Below are positions 1-47,022 of a DNA stretch of 47,615 nt, one piece after another. How positions within the stretch are numbered: position 1 is the stretch's first letter; every line of letters begins with the position of its first letter. Below the pieces are notes generated by a model. That model did no database searches, had not been told where the DNA came from, and saw nothing but the letters and a program-made list of their open reading frames with translations. The translations under genes were made by a program, and so were the position numbers. This DNA comes from Oscillospiraceae bacterium (GTDB lineage Bacteria > Bacillota > Clostridia > Oscillospirales > Ruminococcaceae). The stretch spans positions 1 through 47,615 of the forward strand of contig WRLX01000003.1 in assembly GCA_009777415.1 (NCBI GenBank), in the 5' to 3' direction.

Positions 1-152
1 TTTCCTCAATCGGCTATCAAAAGCTTAAACACGGTTATCGCCCAAAGCACTACATCTTATCGCCATGCTTTTACCCTTTCCTCAATCGGCTATCAAAAGC
101 TTAAACACGGTTATCGCCCAAAGCACTACATCTTATCGCCATGTTTTTGCCC
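1..152 (-). repeat. Two tandem 76-bp leader units downstream of fliP
   Basis: Two near-identical 76-bp units (1-76 and 77-152) follow the fliP stop codon and lead towards the next gene, presumably fliQ, outside the window. Read on the minus strand each unit has a Shine-Dalgarno (GAGGAA, GGGTAAAA), then ATG (142-140 and 66-64), then a 13-residue ORF MAIRCSALGDNRV with TAA. The same frame continues past this stop and ends GGG-TAA exactly 4 nt before the next ATG. Start-to-start distance is 76 nt. The peptide does not resemble the N terminus of FliQ. The sequence differs from the cassettes before flbD or flgB but the architecture is the same. Whether the peptides are made is unknown. Confidence 0.75.
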
Positions 153-165
153 CTTCCTCAATAAG

Positions 166-1044
166 CTATCCGTATCTGAACGATGTGACTATTGCCCCGA
201 CTAACATTTGCCATCCATCAACAAGCACAAACAGCATAATCTTAAACGGCAAAGAAATCATCGCCGGAGGAAGCATCATCATTCCCATTGACATCAGCGT
301 TGATGCAACCACCATATCTATTATCAAAAACGGAATAAACAGCAAAAACCCCATTTGGAACGCCCTTGAAAGTTCGCTTATCATAAAAGAGGGAATGACC
401 ACCCGCAAGCTTAACTGCTCTTGATAGTTAAGGTAATTGACCTCACCTGTAGGCAGTATCGGGATTTGGTTGCCCTCCTCGTCTAAGTCAAACAAAGTCG
501 CATCGGCTAAATCCATGAAAAAACGCATATTAGCCGGGGTTGTCTGTCTAAGCATAAAAGTTTTCAGCGGTTTGCCCGCTTCCTCAACTGCTTCCCACGC
601 AGTATATTCCCCGTTTACATAGGGTCGGTATGCCTCATCATTAATCTGCGCAAATACCGGCCACATAATAAACATTGTAAGGAACAAAGCAAGTCCCGTT
701 AAAACTTGGTTCGGCGGCGTTGATTGGGTACTCATTGCGTTTCTCAAAAACCCGAATACAATTATTATACGGGTAAACGATGTCATCATCAAGAGAATCG
801 ATGGTGCAACCGATAAAATCGTAATCAGCAACAGGATTTCCAACGGCTGTGAGCCGTCTACGCCAATCAAGTCATTTAACGCCGAGGATTCGGGTTCGGG
901 TGCAAGTTCCACCCCTTCGTTAGCCGCATCAGCCATCAGTCCGGTTTCGCCCGGTGCCGATGTTACCGTCATTGTGAGCATGGAAACAAAAAGGGCTATT
1001 ACAGCGAAAAAAACAAAAAATCTCGCAATTTTAAAAACTTTCAT
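166..1044 (-). CDS. fliP: Flagellar export gate protein FliP
   Basis: FliP is a core subunit of the inner-membrane export gate of the flagellar type III secretion system (FliP5-FliQ4-FliR1). The 292-residue protein starts with a hydrophobic segment that looks like the cleavable signal sequence of FliP. The family hallmark follows, with SVAPSILLMMTSFTRI near residue 100 and RNAMSTQSTPPNQVLTGLAL just after it. Two more hydrophobic segments lie near the C terminus, where MLPPAMISLPFKIMLFVLVDGW is also typical. The start codon lies inside the end of fliO (14-nt overlap), so the two genes are probably translationally coupled. Length is slightly above the usual 220-260 residues because of an acidic insert (about residues 35-60) before the first conserved block. 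Confidence 0.96.
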   Translation of the reverse strand: MKVFKIARFFVFFAVIALFVSMLTMTVTSAPGETGLMADAANEGVELAPEPESSALNDLIGVDGSQPLEILLLITILSVAPSILLMMTSFTRIIIVFGFLRNAMSTQSTPPNQVLTGLALFLTMFIMWPVFAQINDEAYRPYVNGEYTAWEAVEEAGKPLKTFMLRQTTPANMRFFMDLADATLFDLDEEGNQIPILPTGEVNYLNYQEQLSLRVVIPSFMISELSRAFQMGFLLFIPFLIIDMVVASTLMSMGMMMLPPAMISLPFKIMLFVLVDGWQMLVGAIVTSFRYG

Positions 1045-6465: not shown

Positions 6466-6655
6466 AGTTTTACCCCTGCCCCTTCTGCACAATCGGGTGT
6501 TAAAAGTTTCGTTTTCCGCATTTACTCGGATTTACTTTCAAACTTTTACCCCTGCCCCTTCTGCACAATCGGGTGTTAAAAGTTTCGTTTTCCGCATTTA
6601 CTCGGATTTACTCTCAAACTTTTACCCCTGACCCTTCTGCACAATTAGCAATAAT
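6466..6655 (-). repeat. Tandem 76-nt leader cassettes before flbD
   Basis: Two full 76-bp units and a third partial unit lie between flgE and flbD (TTTTACCCC on the plus strand at 6468, 6544 and 6620). On the minus strand each has GGGTCAGGGG or GGGGCAGGGG, TAAAAGT, a TTG start, the 13-residue ORF (L/M)(R/K)VNPSKCGKRNF with TAA, then TTGTGCAGAAGGGGCAGGGG. The frame after the first stop encodes IVQKGQG and closes with TAA 4 nt before the next start. AAAAGTTT near the TTG start and AAACTTTT at the first stop are perfect complements, so each unit could fold as an 8-bp stem enclosing most of the peptide ORF. Confidence 0.85.
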
Positions 6656-17757: not shown

Positions 17758-17833
17758 TATTTTACCCTTGACCTTTCTGCACAAACGTGCCATAAAAGTT
17801 TCGTTTTCCCATTCAACAAGTGCCTATTTTCAA
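17758..17833 (-). repeat. 76-nt leader cassette before fliF
   Basis: A copy of the leader family runs from a TTG at 17833 to the fliF ATG at 17757, exactly 76 nt. The TTG frame stops early (LKIGTC). A second start, ATG 17812, opens MGKRNFYGTFVQKGQG with TAA at 17764-17762, 4 nt before the fliF ATG. The C-terminal half (NFYGTFVQKG) is shared with other copies. GCACGTTTGTGC and AGAAAGGTCAAGGG precede the gene start. Upstream (17834-17882) there is AT-rich sequence with no gene. Confidence 0.75.
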
Positions 17834-17882
17834 ACTTTGTGACCTTGACCTTTCCTATCTATATTCCAAACTTTCACCTTTA

Positions 17883-18188: not shown

Positions 18189-18225
18189 GTTTTTACCCTT
18201 GTCCTTTCTGCACAATATGTGCCAT
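18189..18225 (-). repeat. Short leader cassette before fliE
   Basis: Only the 3' half of the leader family is present between flgC and fliE. ATG 18225 opens MAHIVQKGQG with TAA at 18195-18193, again 4 nt before the fliE ATG. The Shine-Dalgarno is AGAAAGGACAAGGG, and GCACATATTGTGC gives a small inverted repeat just before it. The frame and the VQKGQG ending match the full-length copies. Confidence 0.65.
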
Positions 18226-18233
18226 AAAAATTA

Positions 18234-18719: not shown

Positions 18720-18744
18720 CGTATTTCTCCCTCATTTATAATAG

Positions 18745-18906
18745 TATAGTCGGTCAGTTTGAGTTTAGTCTGCTGATTTGTGAGCAGATTTTTTGTCAAA
18801 CAAGACGATTTTTGCGCGAATATCCGTGCATATTTAAGTAAAAATCAACGCAGTATGGCGGAAAATATGCCGCAAACGGCGACTAAACTTAAACTGACCG
18901 ACTATA
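18745..18906. mobile_element. MITE-like palindromic element A between flgB and flgC
   Basis: The element is 162 bp with 25-bp terminal inverted repeats (18745-18769 and 18882-18906) that differ at one base; the outer part reads TATAGTCGGTCAGTTT. Flanking TA dinucleotides would fit TA target duplication as in Tc1/mariner-IS630 MITEs. The interior is largely self-complementary (GATTTTT and AAAAATC; AATAT and ATATT). It encodes no protein. From TGCTGAT (18771) to GCGGAAAAT (about 18868) it matches the element at 35758-35926, although the ends of the two elements are unrelated. It lies inside the flagellar operon. Confidence 0.8.
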
Positions 18907-18919
18907 TACAGGTGAACGC

Positions 18920-19288: not shown

Positions 19289-19364
19289 GTTTTCACCCAT
19301 GCCCCTTCTGCACAAATGTGCCGTTGAAAGCCTCTTTTCCGCATTTACGCAGATTTACTTTCAA
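19289..19364 (-). repeat. 76-nt leader cassette and leader ORF before flgB
   Basis: TTG 19364 starts an uninterrupted 23-residue ORF (LKVNLRKCGKEAF followed by NGTFVQKGHG). It ends in TGA at 19295-19293, 4 nt before the flgB ATG; start-to-start is 76 nt. It is one of the few copies without an internal stop. The upstream ribosome site for this TTG is poor (AAGAGGATAAAAG). The GCACATTTGTGC palindrome and AGAAGGGGCATGGG lie at the 3' end. As the first translated unit of the operon it could couple flgB translation to a leader peptide. Confidence 0.75.
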
Positions 19365-19434
19365 ACTTTTATCCTCTTTACTCTCTTTACTTGCATTTAC
19401 TTACTTTTTCATTTTGATTAATTGTGATTTATCA

Positions 19435-22106: not shown

Positions 22107-22928
22107 ATGGCAAGAATTATCACTATAACCAATCAAAAAGGCGGTGTAGGGAAGACTACCGTCTGTGCGTCTATTTGCGGTTGCCTGTCTGAAATGGGCA
22201 AATCCGTCCTCGCCATTGACCTTGACCCGCAGGGGAATTTGTCGTTCAGCTTAGGGGTTGATGCAACTTCGGGCGGCTATACCATGTATAACGCACTCAA
22301 ACAAACGGTCGGGATTTATGATATAATCCAGCATACCGAAATATGCGATGTTGCCCCGGCTAATATTACTCTTTCGGCTTGTGAGCTTGAATTGACCTCG
22401 GTAGGGCGGGAACATATCCTTAAAGAACAGATTGATACCGTTGCTGCCGATTATGACTATATCTTGATTGATACCCCGCCCGCGCTGTCGGTGCTTACAA
22501 TCAATGCTTATGTCGCGTCGGACTGGCTTATTATCCCCATGATTCCCGAGATTTTGTCGTTGCAGGGGTTCGCCCAATTGCAAGAAACTATTTATGCCAT
22601 TAAAAAGTATTACAACAAAATGCTCGAAGTCCGCGGAATTGTGCTTAACCAATATAACCCGCGTCTCATTTTAACTAAGGAAGTCGAGGAACTCGCCAAT
22701 ATAATCGCCGAACAGCTTGATACCGATGTGTTTCAGCAAAAAATAACGAGCAGCGTTGCGATTGCCGAAGCACCCGCTCACGGTAAGACAGTGAGCAATT
22801 ACGCGCCGCGTTCTAAATCGTCAATGGAATTTTCCGACCTTACATACGAGATATTGGGATTGGAAAGACCTAAACGCAAATCGTCTAAGAAAGGGCGTGG
22901 ACGTGTTAAGAAGGATGTGAAAGCTTGA
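22107..22928 (+). CDS. ParA/Soj/MinD-family ATPase
   Basis: ParA-type ATPases position chromosomes, plasmids, chemoreceptor arrays or flagella. The 273-residue protein begins MARIITITNQKGGVGKTT, with the deviant Walker A KGGVGKTT, followed by AIDLDPQGN (Walker A') and DYILIDTPPALSVL (Walker B). The C terminus is Lys/Arg-rich. No parB gene is adjacent. ATG 22107 gives the normal family N terminus but has no clear ribosome site. GTG 22044 follows AAGAAAGGGAC and would add 21 residues, so the true start is open. It overlaps by 4 nt the truncated ubiA copy. Its task here is unknown; placement of motility or envelope machinery is possible. Confidence 0.85.
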   Translation: MARIITITNQKGGVGKTTVCASICGCLSEMGKSVLAIDLDPQGNLSFSLGVDATSGGYTMYNALKQTVGIYDIIQHTEICDVAPANITLSACELELTSVGREHILKEQIDTVAADYDYILIDTPPALSVLTINAYVASDWLIIPMIPEILSLQGFAQLQETIYAIKKYYNKMLEVRGIVLNQYNPRLILTKEVEELANIIAEQLDTDVFQQKITSSVAIAEAPAHGKTVSNYAPRSKSSMEFSDLTYEILGLERPKRKSSKKGRGRVKKDVKA

Positions 22929-22999
22929 AGCATATAATAAGGGCAATGCGACCTAAAAGCTGGAGTAAAAAAGAGCTGGGAAGTGTTAAAAGGTGGTGA
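22925..22999 (+). repeat. Truncated duplicate of the ubiA start region
   Basis: About 53 bp spanning the ribosome site and the first 16 codons of the following gene occur twice (22918-22971 and 22997-23050), with one base change. The first copy has its own TTG (22925, overlapping the parA-like stop) and encodes LKHIIRAMRPKSWSKK, eight more residues and TGA. That stop lies 4 nt before the TTG of the complete gene; start-to-start is 79 nt. Its size and spacing match the leader cassettes elsewhere, but the sequence is gene-specific. Confidence 0.85.
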
Positions 23000-23003
23000 A
23001 AGC

Positions 23004-23864
23004 TTGAAACATATAATAAGGGCAATGCGACCTAAAAGCTGGAGTAAAAATGTTTTCATTTTTATCCCGATTGTTTATGCACTTGAGTTGTTTAATTCCG
23101 ATAAAATGTTGTCCGTTATTGTCGCTTTTGCCGGGTTTTGCTTTATTTCATCGGCAGTGTACCTTTTTAACGATGCATACGATGCCGAAAAAGACGCGGC
23201 GCATCCCGTAAAAAAACACCGACCGATAGCGTCCGGCATAATCTCAAAATCAAAAGCATGGTTTCTTGCGGGATTACTTGCCGCCGTTGGTGTTTCTGCC
23301 ATGGCTTCCTTGACTCTTTTTTGGGGGAGTTGTGCAACTCTGATATTCAGCGTTATATACTTAGCTTTAAATGTTGCGTATACGCTGAGTTTAAAGCATA
23401 TGCCTATTATCGACTGTTTTTGTATAGCGGCGGGGTTTTCGCTCCGCATTTACATAGGAGGTGCGGCAAGCGGTGTAGCCGTTTCGGATTGGCTTTTTTT
23501 GACAGTTGTTGCCGCCTCATTGTTTATGGCATTCGGTAAGCGACGCGGCGAAATGATTATGAGCGAAAACGCCGACGAAACGAGAAAATCCCTGACACAG
23601 TATAATTTGGACTTCCTGAAAGGGGTTGTCTTCATCTGTGCCGCTTTGGCAATTGTTTTTTACTCGCTTTGGACGTTGGAGAGAGGGAACAATATGGTCT
23701 ACACCGTCCCGCTGATTATATTCATCGTGTCTAAGTATCTGCTCTTAATCCATGAAGTTAATTCACACGGCGACCCCACTACCGTAATATTCGGCGACAA
23801 AACATTTCTGCTGTCATGTGGGCTGTATGCGGTTTTGACCGTTTTGCTACTATATAGTATATAA
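23004..23864 (+). CDS. UbiA-family prenyltransferase, phosphoribosyl-polyprenyl synthase-like
   Basis: UbiA proteins are membrane prenyltransferases. This 286-residue protein has the motif NDAYDAEKDAAHPVKKHRPI followed by ASG near residue 60, the pattern of decaprenyl-phosphate phosphoribosyltransferase (DprE pathway, Rv3806c-like) rather than of quinone enzymes. About eight hydrophobic helices are visible. Such an enzyme would attach phosphoribose to polyprenyl phosphate for a cell-surface pentose polymer; this is inference from the motif. TTG 23004, seven nt after AGGTGG, is the likely start. It is followed at once by a polytopic membrane protein that could use the lipid-linked sugar. Confidence 0.82.
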   Translation: MKHIIRAMRPKSWSKNVFIFIPIVYALELFNSDKMLSVIVAFAGFCFISSAVYLFNDAYDAEKDAAHPVKKHRPIASGIISKSKAWFLAGLLAAVGVSAMASLTLFWGSCATLIFSVIYLALNVAYTLSLKHMPIIDCFCIAAGFSLRIYIGGAASGVAVSDWLFLTVVAASLFMAFGKRRGEMIMSENADETRKSLTQYNLDFLKGVVFICAALAIVFYSLWTLERGNNMVYTVPLIIFIVSKYLLLIHEVNSHGDPTTVIFGDKTFLLSCGLYAVLTVLLLYSI

Positions 23865-29684: not shown

Positions 29685-29760
29685 TTTTTTACCCTTGTCC
29701 TTTCTGCACAAGCATGAAATCAAAAGTTGCGTTTTCCGCATTTACCAAGAACACTTTTAA
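29685..29760 (-). repeat. 76-nt leader cassette before gpsA
   Basis: The copy runs from 29760, where TTA stands in the position of the usual TTG start, to the gpsA GTG, exactly 76 nt. The frame ends LVQKGQG with TAA at 29691-29689, 4 nt before the gene. With the start codon mutated, an internal GTG six nt on is the only nearby start. The AGAAAGGACAAGGG ribosome site is kept. It suggests that the 3' ribosome site is under selection even where the leader ORF is damaged. Confidence 0.7.
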
Positions 29761-29784
29761 AGCTTTTACCCTTACCCTCTCCCT

Positions 29785-32965: not shown

Positions 32966-32983
32966 TTTAGTGAATTATAAAGA

Positions 32984-33077
32984 AAGGGCAGGGGTAAAAG
33001 TTTGAAAGTAAATCTGCGTAAATGCGGAAAAAGAAACTTTTAAAGTACATTTGTGTAGAAAGGGCAGGGGTAAAAAA
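32984..33077 (+). repeat. 76-nt leader cassette before the 33078 gene
   Basis: AGAAAGGGCAGGGG (about 32971-32994) precedes TTG 33002, which opens LKVNLRKCGKRNF with TAA at 33041-33043. GTACATTTGTGTAGAAAGGGCAGGGG then leads to ATG 33078; start-to-start is 76 nt. In the same frame the last codon before the gene is again TAA, 4 nt upstream. Both the leader and the gene thus have nearly identical ribosome sites. Confidence 0.85.
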
Positions 33078-35757: not shown

Positions 35758-35926
35758 TTAAGAACCTGTCTTCTATAAGCAACGTGCTGATAAAACGAGC
35801 GGATTTTTCGTCAGACAAGGCGATTTTTGTGCGAATATCCGTGCATATTTAAGCAAAAATCAACGCGCAGTATGGCGGAAAATCCGCCGTTTTAGCAGTG
35901 TGTTTGCTTATGAAGACAGGTTCTAA
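35758..35926. mobile_element. MITE-like palindromic element B
   Basis: The roughly 169-bp element has a perfect terminal repeat AGAACCTGTCTTC (35761-35773) and GAAGACAGGTTCT (35912-35924), followed by imperfect complementarity. GCGGATTTT and AAAATCCGC, then GATTTTTG and CAAAAATC, continue the palindrome inwards. From TGCTGAT (35785) to GCGGAAAAT (35884) it matches element A at 18745-18906, whose terminal repeats are different. No ORF is present. It makes up much of the gap before the lipoprotein gene. Confidence 0.8.
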
Positions 35927-35931
35927 GACTT

Positions 35932-36049
35932 CTTACAGCACACTCGTGCAGAAAGGGAATGGGTAAAAAGTTTGAGAATCAATCTTCGAATAAATGGGAA
36001 AACGAATTTTTACAGCACACCCGTGCAGAAAGGAAATGGGTAAAAAGTT
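35932..36049 (+). repeat. Leader cassette before the lipoprotein gene
   Basis: A ribosome site CAGAAAGGGAATGGG precedes TTG 35972, which opens an uninterrupted 23-residue ORF (LRINLRINGKTNF then YSTPVQKGNG) with TAA at 36041-36043. The CGTGCAGAAAGG segment recurs 77 nt downstream (35945 and 36022). Six nt separate the stop from ATG 36050; start-to-start is 78 nt. Confidence 0.8.
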
Positions 36050-36607
36050 ATGAAAAAAACTCTGCTTGTTATTCTTTCGGTGATTAGCGTGTTTCTTTTA
36101 GCGGTCAGCGTGACTGTACTCTTCACATCTTGCAGTCACAGTAATGCGCAACCGCTTGAATCCACAACCGAAGCCACAGAACTCACAACAACAGACTCAA
36201 CAACCGCTACTCAGCGGACAACTGCCGCATCGGCAACCACCACTAAAAAAGAAACAACCACAGTTGTAACAACAACACTTGCGGCTACAACATCAAAGAC
36301 TAATAATGCGATACCGGCTAATAATGCACCGGCGGCCGATAATACTCAAGCGGCTAACAACACTCCGCCTCCGCCACAGCCTACCGGCCCGCCACCGACT
36401 AACAACACTCCGCCACCGCAGCAACCTACCAACCCGCCACCTCCTCCACCGCAGCCTACCGCTACCGACCCGCCACCTCCTCCTCCGCAACCTACCGACC
36501 CTCCTCCACCCCCGCCACAGCCTACCGACCCTCCTCCACCTCCACCGCAACCTACCGACCCGCCGCCTCCTCCTCCGGATGACGGCTGTTGCCCGGATTG
36601 CGATTAG
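36050..36607 (+). CDS. Thr/Pro-rich lipoprotein with PPPPPPQPTD repeats
   Basis: The 185-residue protein has a lipoprotein signal peptide; the lipobox is FTSC with C28. A Thr/Ser/Ala-rich segment follows (about 35-80), likely glycosylated. Asn/Ala-rich sequence leads to a Pro-rich wall-spanning part with four copies of PPPPPPQPTD or close variants (encoded by 30-bp tandem repeats, about 36430-36580). The tail is DDGCCPDCD, a compact Cys cluster at the extreme C terminus. No enzymatic domain is visible. It probably acts as a stalk displaying the Cys tip. It is preceded by a leader cassette and followed by one before the next gene. Confidence 0.7.
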   Translation: MKKTLLVILSVISVFLLAVSVTVLFTSCSHSNAQPLESTTEATELTTTDSTTATQRTTAASATTTKKETTTVVTTTLAATTSKTNNAIPANNAPAADNTQAANNTPPPPQPTGPPPTNNTPPPQQPTNPPPPPPQPTATDPPPPPPQPTDPPPPPPQPTDPPPPPPQPTDPPPPPPDDGCCPDCD

Positions 36608-36708: not shown

Positions 36709-36803
36709 CAGAAAGAAAATAGGTAAAATAATGAAAATAATCTATGTAAATGGGAAAACGAACTTTTATGGCACATTTGTGCAGAAAGGGAATGGGTAAA
36801 ATA
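36709..36803 (+). repeat. Leader cassette before the repeat-containing surface protein
   Basis: ATG 36731 opens an uninterrupted 22-residue ORF (MKIIYVNGKTNF then YGTFVQKGNG) with TAA at 36797-36799, 4 nt before ATG 36804. The start-to-start distance is 73 nt. The ribosome site before ATG 36731 is worn (GCAGAAAGAAAATAGG). In another frame ATG codons in the cassette run into the gene and would only extend it by the ribosome-site sequence. GTACTA and TAGTAC (36661-36685) form an inverted repeat upstream, in the otherwise empty gap after the lipoprotein gene. Confidence 0.75.
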
Positions 36804-38657
36804 ATGAAAAAAATATTAACTTTAATGCTTTTAACAGCATTCGTACTTTCGGTTTGTCCTTTTGTGAGCTTTGCCGACACAAAAAACGACCAAATCTTAT
36901 GGATTCTTAACTCGGCACAAGGCAACGGCGAATTCAGCTATAAATTTGAACTCGCACGTACCCAAGCGCAGATTGATGCGGAACAACGCGGTCAAACCGG
37001 TATCGTCGAAGGCAAAGACGGGCATATCAGAGTTTTCCACGAAAATCGTACCGACGGTGTACCTAACGGCACATACACCGAAACTACCAACTCCAATGCA
37101 ATGGCAGTTTTTGCAAGGAATTACAGGCTTCTCACAATTGATACGGCACAGTCATGGTTCATTTTCGAGGGTGACACAATGTGTGGTGTGACAACGACTG
37201 ATTTCAACGGTAATACTGTTACGAAACAAATCAGTGAACTCAAAAACAGCCTCTCGGGGCTTACTGCCAATGCACCACACTCAAATAAAACTCAGCTTTG
37301 GTGGCTGATTGATGCCGCACGAGGCAAAGGCGAGTTTAGTTATGAGTTTGAACTCGCCCCCTCACAAGCGCAGATTGATGCGGGAACTCACGGACAACGC
37401 GGTGTAGTCGAAGGCAAAGACGGGAATATAAGAGTTTACCACCTTAACTCAAACGGAACGTACACCGAAACAACCAACTCAAACGCAATGGCAATCTTCG
37501 CGCGAAATTACAGATTTCTTACTCAACGTAACCACAATCACAACAATGCAGGTCAGCCCGGACGCATTGAGCCGTCATTCCCCGCGTGGTTGGGATTCGA
37601 CAACAACGGTGAGGAATTCGGAAACTCAAACTTTGAGCTTTTCCCGTTAGTGAGCCATGCAACTTTGACAGGGGCGGCAAACCCGTATGAAATGAACCTC
37701 TTGTCTGCTGACACCGAGCGCGAAAAAGCTATGCTGTTCATCTACGAAGGCGGCACTATGAGTGCAGTTCGCTACTATATGCCAAACGGTGATGCAGTGC
37801 TTAAAAAAATCACTAACTTAAAACCCGCGCTTTCGGGGATTGAAGGAATTGCAAACGCAAACCATTCAAATAAAACTCAGCTTTGGTGGATTATTGACTC
37901 AGCCCGCGGCAAAGGCGAATTCAGCTTTAGCTTCGAACTTGAGGACGGCACAAAAGGCAGTGTGCAGGGAAAAGACGGCACAGTGAGCACTTACACCGAT
38001 GACGGCAACGGGACATATAGTGTTGCCCCCGGTTCGGTTGTGGCGACTACATTCGCATCCCGCTTCAAGCTTCTTACTCAATTTAGCCATAATCACAACA
38101 ACGAAACAACTGCGGGCGAACCCGGTTCACGTCCTTTCCCCGCGCCTCACCCCGAATGGCTGGGATTAACCGATAACGGCGTTGGATTTGCCAACGGAAA
38201 CTACGAACTCTTCCCGTTGGTAGCCGAGGCAACATTAACAGGTGCGGCAAACCCGTTTGAAATGAATCTCACACCGGAAAGAGCGACTTCCGGCGAGATT
38301 GAGCGTACAGGCGATATGTTCTTCGTCTACGACAACGGTGTAATGAGTGCGGCTTGTTTTAACAACACTTATATAAAAATATCGAATTTGAAAAATAGTG
38401 TTGAAAGCGCGATTCAGCCTGATTTCATTTTAGGGCGAATCCTCGACAATAACGACGAACCCACAATCTTTGACGTACTTGAAATATTAAAACACATTGT
38501 CGGTATGAACGGCGTGATTAAATCCGGCGGACCGGACTCCCGTGCATGGAATGCGGCGTTGATTACGCCTGAGTCGCAAGTGAGCGGTACGCCTACTATA
38601 TTTGATGTGCTGGAGATTTTGAAGTATATCGTGGGGATGGATAGTTTGGTTGGATAG
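36804..38657 (+). CDS. Surface protein with three repeats and dockerin-like C terminus
   Basis: The 617-residue protein has a signal peptide (about 1-24, cleavage near FADT). Three internal repeats begin DQILWILNSAQGNGEFSYKF, TQLWWLIDAARGKGEFSYEF and TQLWWIIDSARGKGEFSFSF. Repeats one and two also share GKDGxIRVxH, GTYTETTNSNAMAxFARNYR, and two and three share LFPLVxxATLTGAANP. The C-terminal 75 residues contain two copies of TIFDVLEILKHIVGM-type helices with a preceding Asn/Asp loop, a degenerate dockerin-like pair that also ends the LRR protein at 43231. It probably attaches to a scaffold or the cell surface. I do not recognise the repeat. Confidence 0.7.
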   Translation: MKKILTLMLLTAFVLSVCPFVSFADTKNDQILWILNSAQGNGEFSYKFELARTQAQIDAEQRGQTGIVEGKDGHIRVFHENRTDGVPNGTYTETTNSNAMAVFARNYRLLTIDTAQSWFIFEGDTMCGVTTTDFNGNTVTKQISELKNSLSGLTANAPHSNKTQLWWLIDAARGKGEFSYEFELAPSQAQIDAGTHGQRGVVEGKDGNIRVYHLNSNGTYTETTNSNAMAIFARNYRFLTQRNHNHNNAGQPGRIEPSFPAWLGFDNNGEEFGNSNFELFPLVSHATLTGAANPYEMNLLSADTEREKAMLFIYEGGTMSAVRYYMPNGDAVLKKITNLKPALSGIEGIANANHSNKTQLWWIIDSARGKGEFSFSFELEDGTKGSVQGKDGTVSTYTDDGNGTYSVAPGSVVATTFASRFKLLTQFSHNHNNETTAGEPGSRPFPAPHPEWLGLTDNGVGFANGNYELFPLVAEATLTGAANPFEMNLTPERATSGEIERTGDMFFVYDNGVMSAACFNNTYIKISNLKNSVESAIQPDFILGRILDNNDEPTIFDVLEILKHIVGMNGVIKSGGPDSRAWNAALITPESQVSGTPTIFDVLEILKYIVGMDSLVG

Positions 38658-44871: not shown

Positions 44872-44908
44872 AATTACGACCATTCCTTTCTACACAAACG
44901 TGCGACCC
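44872..44908 (-). repeat. Remnant of a leader cassette before the LRR gene
   Basis: On the minus strand GCACGTTTGTGTAGAAAGG, AATGGTCGTAATT and ATG resemble the 3' part of the tandem cassettes at 46301-46539 (TGTGCAGAAAGGGCATGGTC). The leader ORF part is missing, and the unit is fused directly to the gene start. Confidence 0.6.
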
Positions 44909-46291: not shown

Positions 46292-46300
46292 CCGCCGGAA

Positions 46301-46539
46301 AGGGCATGGTCATAAGTTTGAAAATAAATCTACGTAAATGGGAAAACGAATTCTTATGGCACATTTGTGCAGAAAGGGCATGGTCATAAGTTTGAAAACA
46401 AATCTACGTAAATGGGAAAACGAATTTTTATGGCACATTTGTGCAGAAAGGGCATGGTCATAAGTTTGAAAACAAATCTACGTAAATGGGAAAACGAATT
46501 TTTATGGAACATTTGTGCAGAAAGGGCATGGGTAAAAAA
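46301..46539 (+). repeat. Three tandem 74-bp leader cassettes before the 46540 gene
   Basis: Units 46301-46374, 46375-46448 and 46449-46522 are nearly identical and a partial unit leads to ATG 46540. TTG starts lie at 46318, 46392 and 46466, all 74 nt apart and 74 nt from the gene. The first two ORFs encode LK(I/T)NLRKWENEF and LWHICAERAWS with TAA 2 nt before the next TTG. The third, because GGTCATAA became GGGTAAAA, runs on and stops in a TGA overlapping the gene start (ATGA). This is a chain of three leaders that could hand ribosomes on to the gene. It fills the 315-nt gap with the divergent promoter at 46263-46291. Confidence 0.9.
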
Positions 46540-47022
46540 ATGAAAAAAAAGATGATTTTTATATCGATTTCGGTTGCGGTTGCAGTCATTGCCGTAGCGG
46601 CTTATAAACTCTTCAATCCGCCCGTTGACAGTGTACCGTTGCAGAAACTTCAAGAGGAAATGTTCCTTTACGACAACTGGGCTGTCTTCCAAAAAAGCAC
46701 CGGCAGCCCTGTTATGGATGAGCGAGTTGCCGTTTATGCCGACAAAATGCTGGAGGAAGCGCGAAACAGCGGAATCGGGTTCAGCGAAGCTTCCCGCTAT
46801 GACTTGGGCATAGTTTTAGTGGACTTTGACGACGATGAGTCGGGCGAGTGGTTCAGGCGCAACTCATGGCGATTTGGTTTTAATTATCAAGGTGAGCGGG
46901 ATATGCAGGATAATGAGGCGGATTTCCGCTTTGTAGGCGTGTTCCCCGCCGAGCAAATGTATTACTCGGGCGTAAAGCCGGACGAGTATGCTGAGTTCCT
47001 TTCTTATCACGCTTTTATATAA
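46540..47022 (+). CDS. Small membrane-anchored protein of unknown function
   Basis: The 160-residue protein has an N-terminal basic end and one hydrophobic helix (IFISISVAVAVIAVAAYKLF), most likely a membrane anchor. The external part is acidic: QKLQEEMFLYDNWAVFQKST, then MLEEARNSGIGFSEASRYDL and IVLVDFDDDESGEWFRRNSW. There is no Cys lipobox and no recognised domain. It is the only gene in the window with three leader cassettes, which may mean that its translation is finely adjusted. The tRNA-Gly gene follows. Confidence 0.6.
   Translation: MKKKMIFISISVAVAVIAVAAYKLFNPPVDSVPLQKLQEEMFLYDNWAVFQKSTGSPVMDERVAVYADKMLEEARNSGIGFSEASRYDLGIVLVDFDDDESGEWFRRNSWRFGFNYQGERDMQDNEADFRFVGVFPAEQMYYSGVKPDEYAEFLSYHAFI

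Follow-up and report, generated by a model that had tools for sequence, protein, structure and literature searches.

The repeats that precede many start codons in this Oscillospiraceae genome are probably copies of a mini-cistron, roughly 77 nt long, dispersed and apparently mobile, which, judging from its sequence context, would insert in the sense orientation between the Shine–Dalgarno sequence (SD) of a gene and its start codon and hand ribosomes over to the host gene. The key to the nature of the unit is the gene's original SD directly upstream of it, which the sequence-only reading of the same DNA had overlooked. The window is the whole stretch of 47,615 nt that was analysed (contig C3); G000 denotes the genome under study, and other G numbers denote further genomes, sister species among them.

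The sequence-only reading had described a family of 76-nt leader cassettes, and every site that it listed in the window was recovered, including two full 76-nt units and a partial tail upstream of flbD. Copies were present at all of the genes named, but at the LRR gene only a tail is left, and at fliE only the 3′ part of a unit, of about 38 nt. The copies in the window are as follows:

6468–6543, minus strand: gene-proximal flbD unit (flbD start codon 6465–6463, leader TTG 76 nt upstream); the leader ORF stops early (LKVNPSKCGKRNF, then stop)
6544–6619, minus strand: second tandem flbD unit
6620–6650, minus strand: partial tail GTGCAGAAGGGTCAGGGGTAAAA of a further unit, upstream of the flbD units
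17758–17836, minus strand: fliF unit, upstream flank AGGAAAGGTCAAGGTCACAA; leader ORF broken, stop at −58
18189–18232, minus strand: 3′ part of a unit at fliE, hairpin-like GCACATATTGTGC plus SD
19289–19367, minus strand: flgB unit; leader ORF LKVNLRKCGKEAFNGTFVQKGHG, with the stop 7 nt before flgB
19368–19385, minus strand: SD region of flgB itself, GTAAAGAGGATAAA, on the upstream side of the inserted unit
29685–29764, minus strand: diverged gpsA unit (gpsA start GTG), with TTT in place of the unit TTG
32983–33077, plus strand: unit and upstream tail before gene 33078; leader ORF broken
35928–36049, plus strand: partial and full unit before the lipoprotein-like gene 36050; leader stop 9 nt before the gene
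36731–36803, plus strand: unit of the surface protein gene 36804; leader starting with ATG (MKIIYVNGKTNFYGTFVQKGNG), stop 7 nt before the gene
44872–44908, minus strand: tail remnant CGCACGTTTGTGTAGAAAGGAATGGTCGTAATT at the LRR gene (44871)
46298–46539, plus strand: three tandem 74-nt units before gene 46540; the last leader ORF overlaps the gene by 4 nt (ATGA)

The distance from the unit TTG to the gene start is 76 nt at fliF, flgB, gpsA, and 33078, 78 nt at 36050, 73 nt at 36804, and 74 nt at 46540. The proposed period of 76 nt is indeed the distance seen most often between the last unit and its gene, but inside arrays the commonest spacing is 77 nt (18/39), followed by 76 and 74 nt.

Two tandem duplications of other sequence also lie in the window. 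An unrelated 76-nt tandem array of like layout occupies positions 1–170 (minus strand) and runs onto contig C24 (L156:1–212), between putative fliP (166–1044) and fliQ, both read from their translations; it contains ATGGCGATAAGATGTAGTGC, a 13-codon ORF (MAIRCSALGDNRV, then stop), and then TTGAGGAAAGGGTAAAAAC before the next ATG, was found at this locus only, and is one within which contigs break. At 22911–23050 (plus strand), the start region of the 23004 gene is duplicated in tandem (79 nt); the duplicate is a 24-codon mini-cistron (LKHIIRAMRPKSWSKKELGSVKRW, then stop) ahead of the real start, and it looks as if the gene is here giving rise to a leader mini-cistron for itself.

The census covered 447.6 kb, namely the 47.6-kb window and 20 stretches of 20 kb from G000, drawn from the largest contigs and amounting to about 25% of this 1.78-Mb genome of 162 contigs. 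An iterated profile search of the sample returned 133 units in 88 arrays of one to four tandem copies (59 single, 16 double, 10 triple, and 3 quadruple, i.e., 29/88 with two to four units), these copy numbers being uncertain because MAG assemblies break in such repeats; the identical profile gave 0 matches on the reversed sequence of the same 447.6 kb. A same-strand ORF start lies no more than 25 nt past the array end in 78 of the 88 arrays, as against about one expected by chance (419 ORFs), and the earlier description of a sense-oriented leader family that abuts gene starts and brings a start codon and a ribosome site of its own thus extends well beyond the window. The unit is present at 73 of 383 large ORFs, or about one-fifth of the larger genes in the sample, where AGGAG-type ribosome sites are the ordinary pattern at genes without a unit; extrapolation would give about 350 arrays and 500 units in the whole genome. 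That the served genes are functionally unrelated was correctly noted, but the suggestion that this speaks against ordinary operon structure was not quite right: 69 of the 88 arrays follow a co-directional gene at a median gap of 32 nt, and most arrays therefore lie within operons.

The nearest named relative found through FliF is a termite-gut Oscillospiraceae MAG (35% identity), and the bacterium is taken to be of a termite-gut type. The Termite-flg RNA motif is located upstream of flagellar genes. This motif (RF01729), listed from termite hindgut DNA only (PMC2864571), was rejected as an identity for the unit because the flagellar region gave no Rfam match even at a permissive E-value and because the served genes are not only flagellar.

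The G000 consensus of the unit is AGTTTGAAAGTAAATCTGCGTAAATGCGGAAAACGAAACTTTCAACGGCACATTTGTGCAGAAAGGGCATGGGTAAAA, followed by about 2 nt and then ATG, with an SD-like AGAAAGG within the last 25 nt of the unit. The core (GGAAAACG) and tail are strongly conserved across all species with units, and the unit TTG stands at the same place in 142 of 160 units, two of these having GTG instead. At served genes, anti-SD pairing peaks at −5.2 kcal/mol about 11–20 nt before the ATG, slightly farther than at ordinary genes. The 5′ flank, where it is not the tail of another unit, is mostly a normal SD and spacer, as in AATAGGAGACAAA leading into AGTTTG, TTAGGAGGGTTAAAA into AGTTTA, and AAAGGAGTAAAAAACA into AGTTTG. 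Upstream of 66 element 5′ ends, the anti-SD energy peaks at −5.1 kcal/mol, compared with roughly −0.5 to −1.3 at more distant upstream positions (Wilcoxon p = 6 × 10−7; it should be noted that this and all other significance values given here are optimistic, as the copies share ancestry and p-values overstate their independence). The peak window starts at −12 from the element end, i.e., at −15 from the unit TTG, and in 60 ordinary orthologous genes the peak lies at −15 from the ATG; since both peaks are at −15, the unit TTG holds the start-codon place relative to the gene's own SD. In two copies, L042:13794 and L048:12819, the middle of the unit is deleted and the arms GTTTGAAAG and CTTTCAAAC are kept as a stem, which suggests either that the segment separating the arms was lost or that the stem has some function.

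In G000, the frame that begins at the TTG mostly ends at the unit end, either with the TAA of GGGTAA or with a TGA that overlaps the next TTG (TTGA). Among gene-proximal units, a stop falls within −15 to +30 of the gene start in 26/46 TTG frames versus 10/92 of the other two frames (p = 2 × 10−8), and early stops interrupt 15/46 and 76/92, respectively. The exact ATGA overlap with the gene is found in 5/46, TAA about 4 nt before the gene being commoner than an exact NTGA overlap, and many 77-nt arrays have unit-to-unit TTGA. Array spacing is mostly 77, 74, or 80 nt according to species, i.e., in steps of three, and equals 2 modulo 3 in 23/39 cases in G000 (p = 9 × 10−4) and in 13/15 cases in other genomes (p = 3 × 10−5), which is what a 4-nt start–stop overlap needs. 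The leader peptides themselves differ, being MKVNLRKCGKRNFQRHICAERAWVK in G000, MKEPVQIGENETFKCTFVRKGHGE in G045, MKINPRKYGRTYFQSAFVQKGHV in G100, and MKQNTTETGKTLFSFFVGEERT in G011 and nearly so in G053, the last three each followed by a stop. They are not conserved because G045, G000, and G026 each read the common core in a different frame, all of these frames staying open; a conserved leader peptide was rejected on this ground, and it is openness and register that are kept, not the peptide product. About one-third of the leader ORFs in G000 (15/46), those at flbD, fliF, and 33078 among them, are broken, so the gene can do without an intact leader, and the element's own SD may be enough in places. 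Units are 94.7% identical within arrays versus 73.3% between arrays, which indicates that arrays grow by local duplication.

Empty sites are found in sister species. At flgB, G046 reads AATAAGGAGTTCGGT directly followed by ATGGGT, and G000 reads TAAAGAGGATAAA, the unit, and ATGGGG; none of the sister orthologs found carries a unit at flgB (0/14), fliF (0/15), or fliE (0/2). Likewise, G022 has AAGGAGTAAATC joined to ATGAAAATAGGA, compared with AAGGAGTAGA, the unit, AAATT, and ATGAAAATAGGA in G026, and in a second pair from the same genomes AGGGAGATAATT joined to ATGATTAATCAA is matched by AAAGGAGATA, units, and ATGGTTAATCAA; in both pairs the SD is shared, and the presence or absence of the unit makes the difference. 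Across 63 cross-species ortholog pairs of served genes, the unit is present in both species for only two distinct genes. One ortholog with an 80% identical protein (L042:1260 in G000, and 16393 on the minus strand of L122 in G026) has units in both species, but of quite different sequence; the insertion may be old and shared, or the gene may have been hit twice independently.

With a sequence-only model, copies were found in 14 of 71 genomes of one genus, seven of which are rich (33 to more than 100 matches) and the rest of which have few or none, and no match was obtained outside the genus in a sample of 295 genomes from the order. Every unit-rich species has its own consensus. In G011, 15 identical 52-nt cores occur at 14 sites, a different SD precedes each wherever the 5′ flank is readable, and all stand directly before TATG, the one exception being the first of the two units in a double array; G045 also has identical cores at unlinked genes. 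Such identical cores point to recent bursts of dispersal. The young copies of G011 and G045 show unrelated host SDs, and a target-site duplication of the SD region was set aside for this reason; the variants that flanks and tails share in older arrays, which had suggested such a duplication, are taken to stem from local duplication. For the unit we identified neither terminal repeats nor a target duplication, and neither a transposase nor an insertion event; plasmids, phages, and IMG/VR (strict pattern) gave no match to the element. Integron attC sites were rejected, as the units lie at ordinary chromosomal genes on both strands.

The conservation of core and tail and the constant location within the 5′ leader could also be expected of a cis-regulatory RNA element of a large regulon, either riboswitch-like or a protein-binding leader, whose core would bind a ligand or regulator and whose tandem copies would strengthen the effect. 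Some copies can fold (TTTGAAAG with CTTTCAAA and, in L062, TTTGAAAC with GTTTCAAA), and the shortened copy L042:13794 retains a perfect stem. However, RNAalifold gave no consensus pairs for 42 cross-species units and no consensus fold for 55 G000 units, single units fold no better than shuffled sequences (z from 0.3 to −1.3, one shortened copy excepted), and Rfam scans gave no match for the unit; a structured RNA was rejected on these results. Moreover, unit positions are not conserved between species, the served genes are unrelated, and a regulatory site needs neither placement between SD and start codon nor a length of 2 modulo 3, and we regard regulation of this kind as unlikely.

Local tandem duplication of initiation regions with gene conversion between genes, i.e., spread without an insertion mechanism, would fit the higher identity within arrays, and G000 does contain two other start regions that are duplicated in tandem and unrelated to the unit, one of 76 nt ahead of fliQ and one of 79 nt ahead of the 23004 gene. 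Gene conversion, however, needs a prior copy, yet identical units stand at 14 unrelated G011 genes with different SDs directly upstream, which makes this route quite improbable. It is also conceivable that the unit is a translational enhancer cassette selected for higher expression and spread by rare recombination only: the intact leader frames are enriched, and bicistronic expression designs likewise combine a new SD with a leader ORF. In these, as in natural leader mini-cistrons, a short translated leader ORF holds the SD of the gene and its stop overlaps or abuts the gene start (PMC12548453, where they are treated alongside MIRUs). Those systems share the layout but are engineered or limited to single genes, not dispersed repeats. 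Against selection for expression, most sister species are without units, the orthologs of served genes manage without them, and degenerate copies are common, so that this explanation seems very improbable indeed.

The mobile mini-cistron would work as follows. The element would insert in the sense orientation between the SD and the start codon, and the old SD would then drive initiation at the element TTG, at the normal distance. The ribosome would read the 22–26-codon open frame, which has no conserved product, and stop at the gene start or a few nucleotides before it, with TAA about 4 nt before or with the 4-nt NTGA overlap, and the second SD near the 3′ end of the element (AGAAAGG...) would support re-initiation or new initiation on the gene. 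With ribosomes handed on in this way, insertion would be tolerated even in essential or operonic genes, and local tandem duplication would add units in coupled register. Location, orientation, the order of SD, element, and start, the empty sites, the frame and stop statistics, and the species-specific bursts are read from the sequence; that the copies reach new sites by inserting at start codons, and not through some other copying process, and that leader and gene are translationally coupled, we infer. More tentatively, the insertion machinery might recognise the translation initiation region itself and place the unit between the SD and the start codon of any gene, in the sense orientation only and perhaps via an mRNA or single-stranded intermediate, and thereby have captured the initiation of about one-fifth of the larger genes.

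Among known repeats, REP/BIME, BOX, Correia, and other MITE-like elements resemble the unit in being dispersed, short, partly tandem, and patchy among relatives, but they are palindromic and intergenic, can point either way, and have no fixed relation to start codons. A palindromic dispersed repeat of MITE type, about 160–170 nt long, is present in the window at 18737–18908 and 35797–35866, on C10, C12, and C118, and in many sister species, and triggers spurious plant-miRNA matches in Rfam.

The mycobacterial MIRUs are closer. They occupy a few dozen loci, compared with the extrapolated 350 or so arrays per 1.78 Mb here, and have no strong dyad symmetry, in line with the absence of RNAalifold structure and the weak z-scores of our units; we know of no established mechanism of MIRU movement. 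A 2025 review describes MIRUs as apparently mobile; when they insert at a start codon, they bring a small ORF that is coupled to the gene by 4 nt, and this softens the insertion (PMC12548453, which cites Supply et al. 1997). A 77-nt class I MIRU forms a whole 5′ UTR in M. bovis (PMC4128351), and senX3 is separated from regX3 by tandem units of 77 bp (PMC4213456). The earlier statement that no repeat family of this form has been described therefore does not stand, since MIRUs, as the review presents them, share the design. Both are short (77 bp in class I), apparently mobile, often tandem (29/88 arrays here), and located in 5′ leaders or between operon genes in the direction of the gene (78/88 arrays sense and at starts here). 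The leader ORF of the unit is a candidate counterpart of the gene-coupled small ORF of MIRUs: it stops near the gene start in 26/46 cases, five of them exactly as ATGA, and is broken in 15/46. Both also point to insertion at start codons, here by a 5′ end at start-codon distance from the host SD, by empty sites, and by the G011 cores before TATG. Unlike MIRUs, the unit belongs to another phylum (Bacillota, Oscillospirales-type), carries its own 3′ SD and sits after the host SD, and more often ends its leader with a TAA some 4 nt ahead of the gene than with an exact NTGA overlap (5/46). We would describe the unit as MIRU-like and reserve the name MIRU itself for the mycobacterial repeats, the likeness being one of features rather than of compared sequences.

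Repeats that target start codons have hitherto been exemplified by MIRUs. The family described here is independent and far denser, includes identical copies of recent date, and has sister species with empty sites; it offers a comparative system for studying how such an element finds start codons and how translation of the host gene is maintained by leader ORFs. The family also matters for annotation, since a leader ORF and two ribosome sites in succession precede about one-fifth of the larger genes in this genome.
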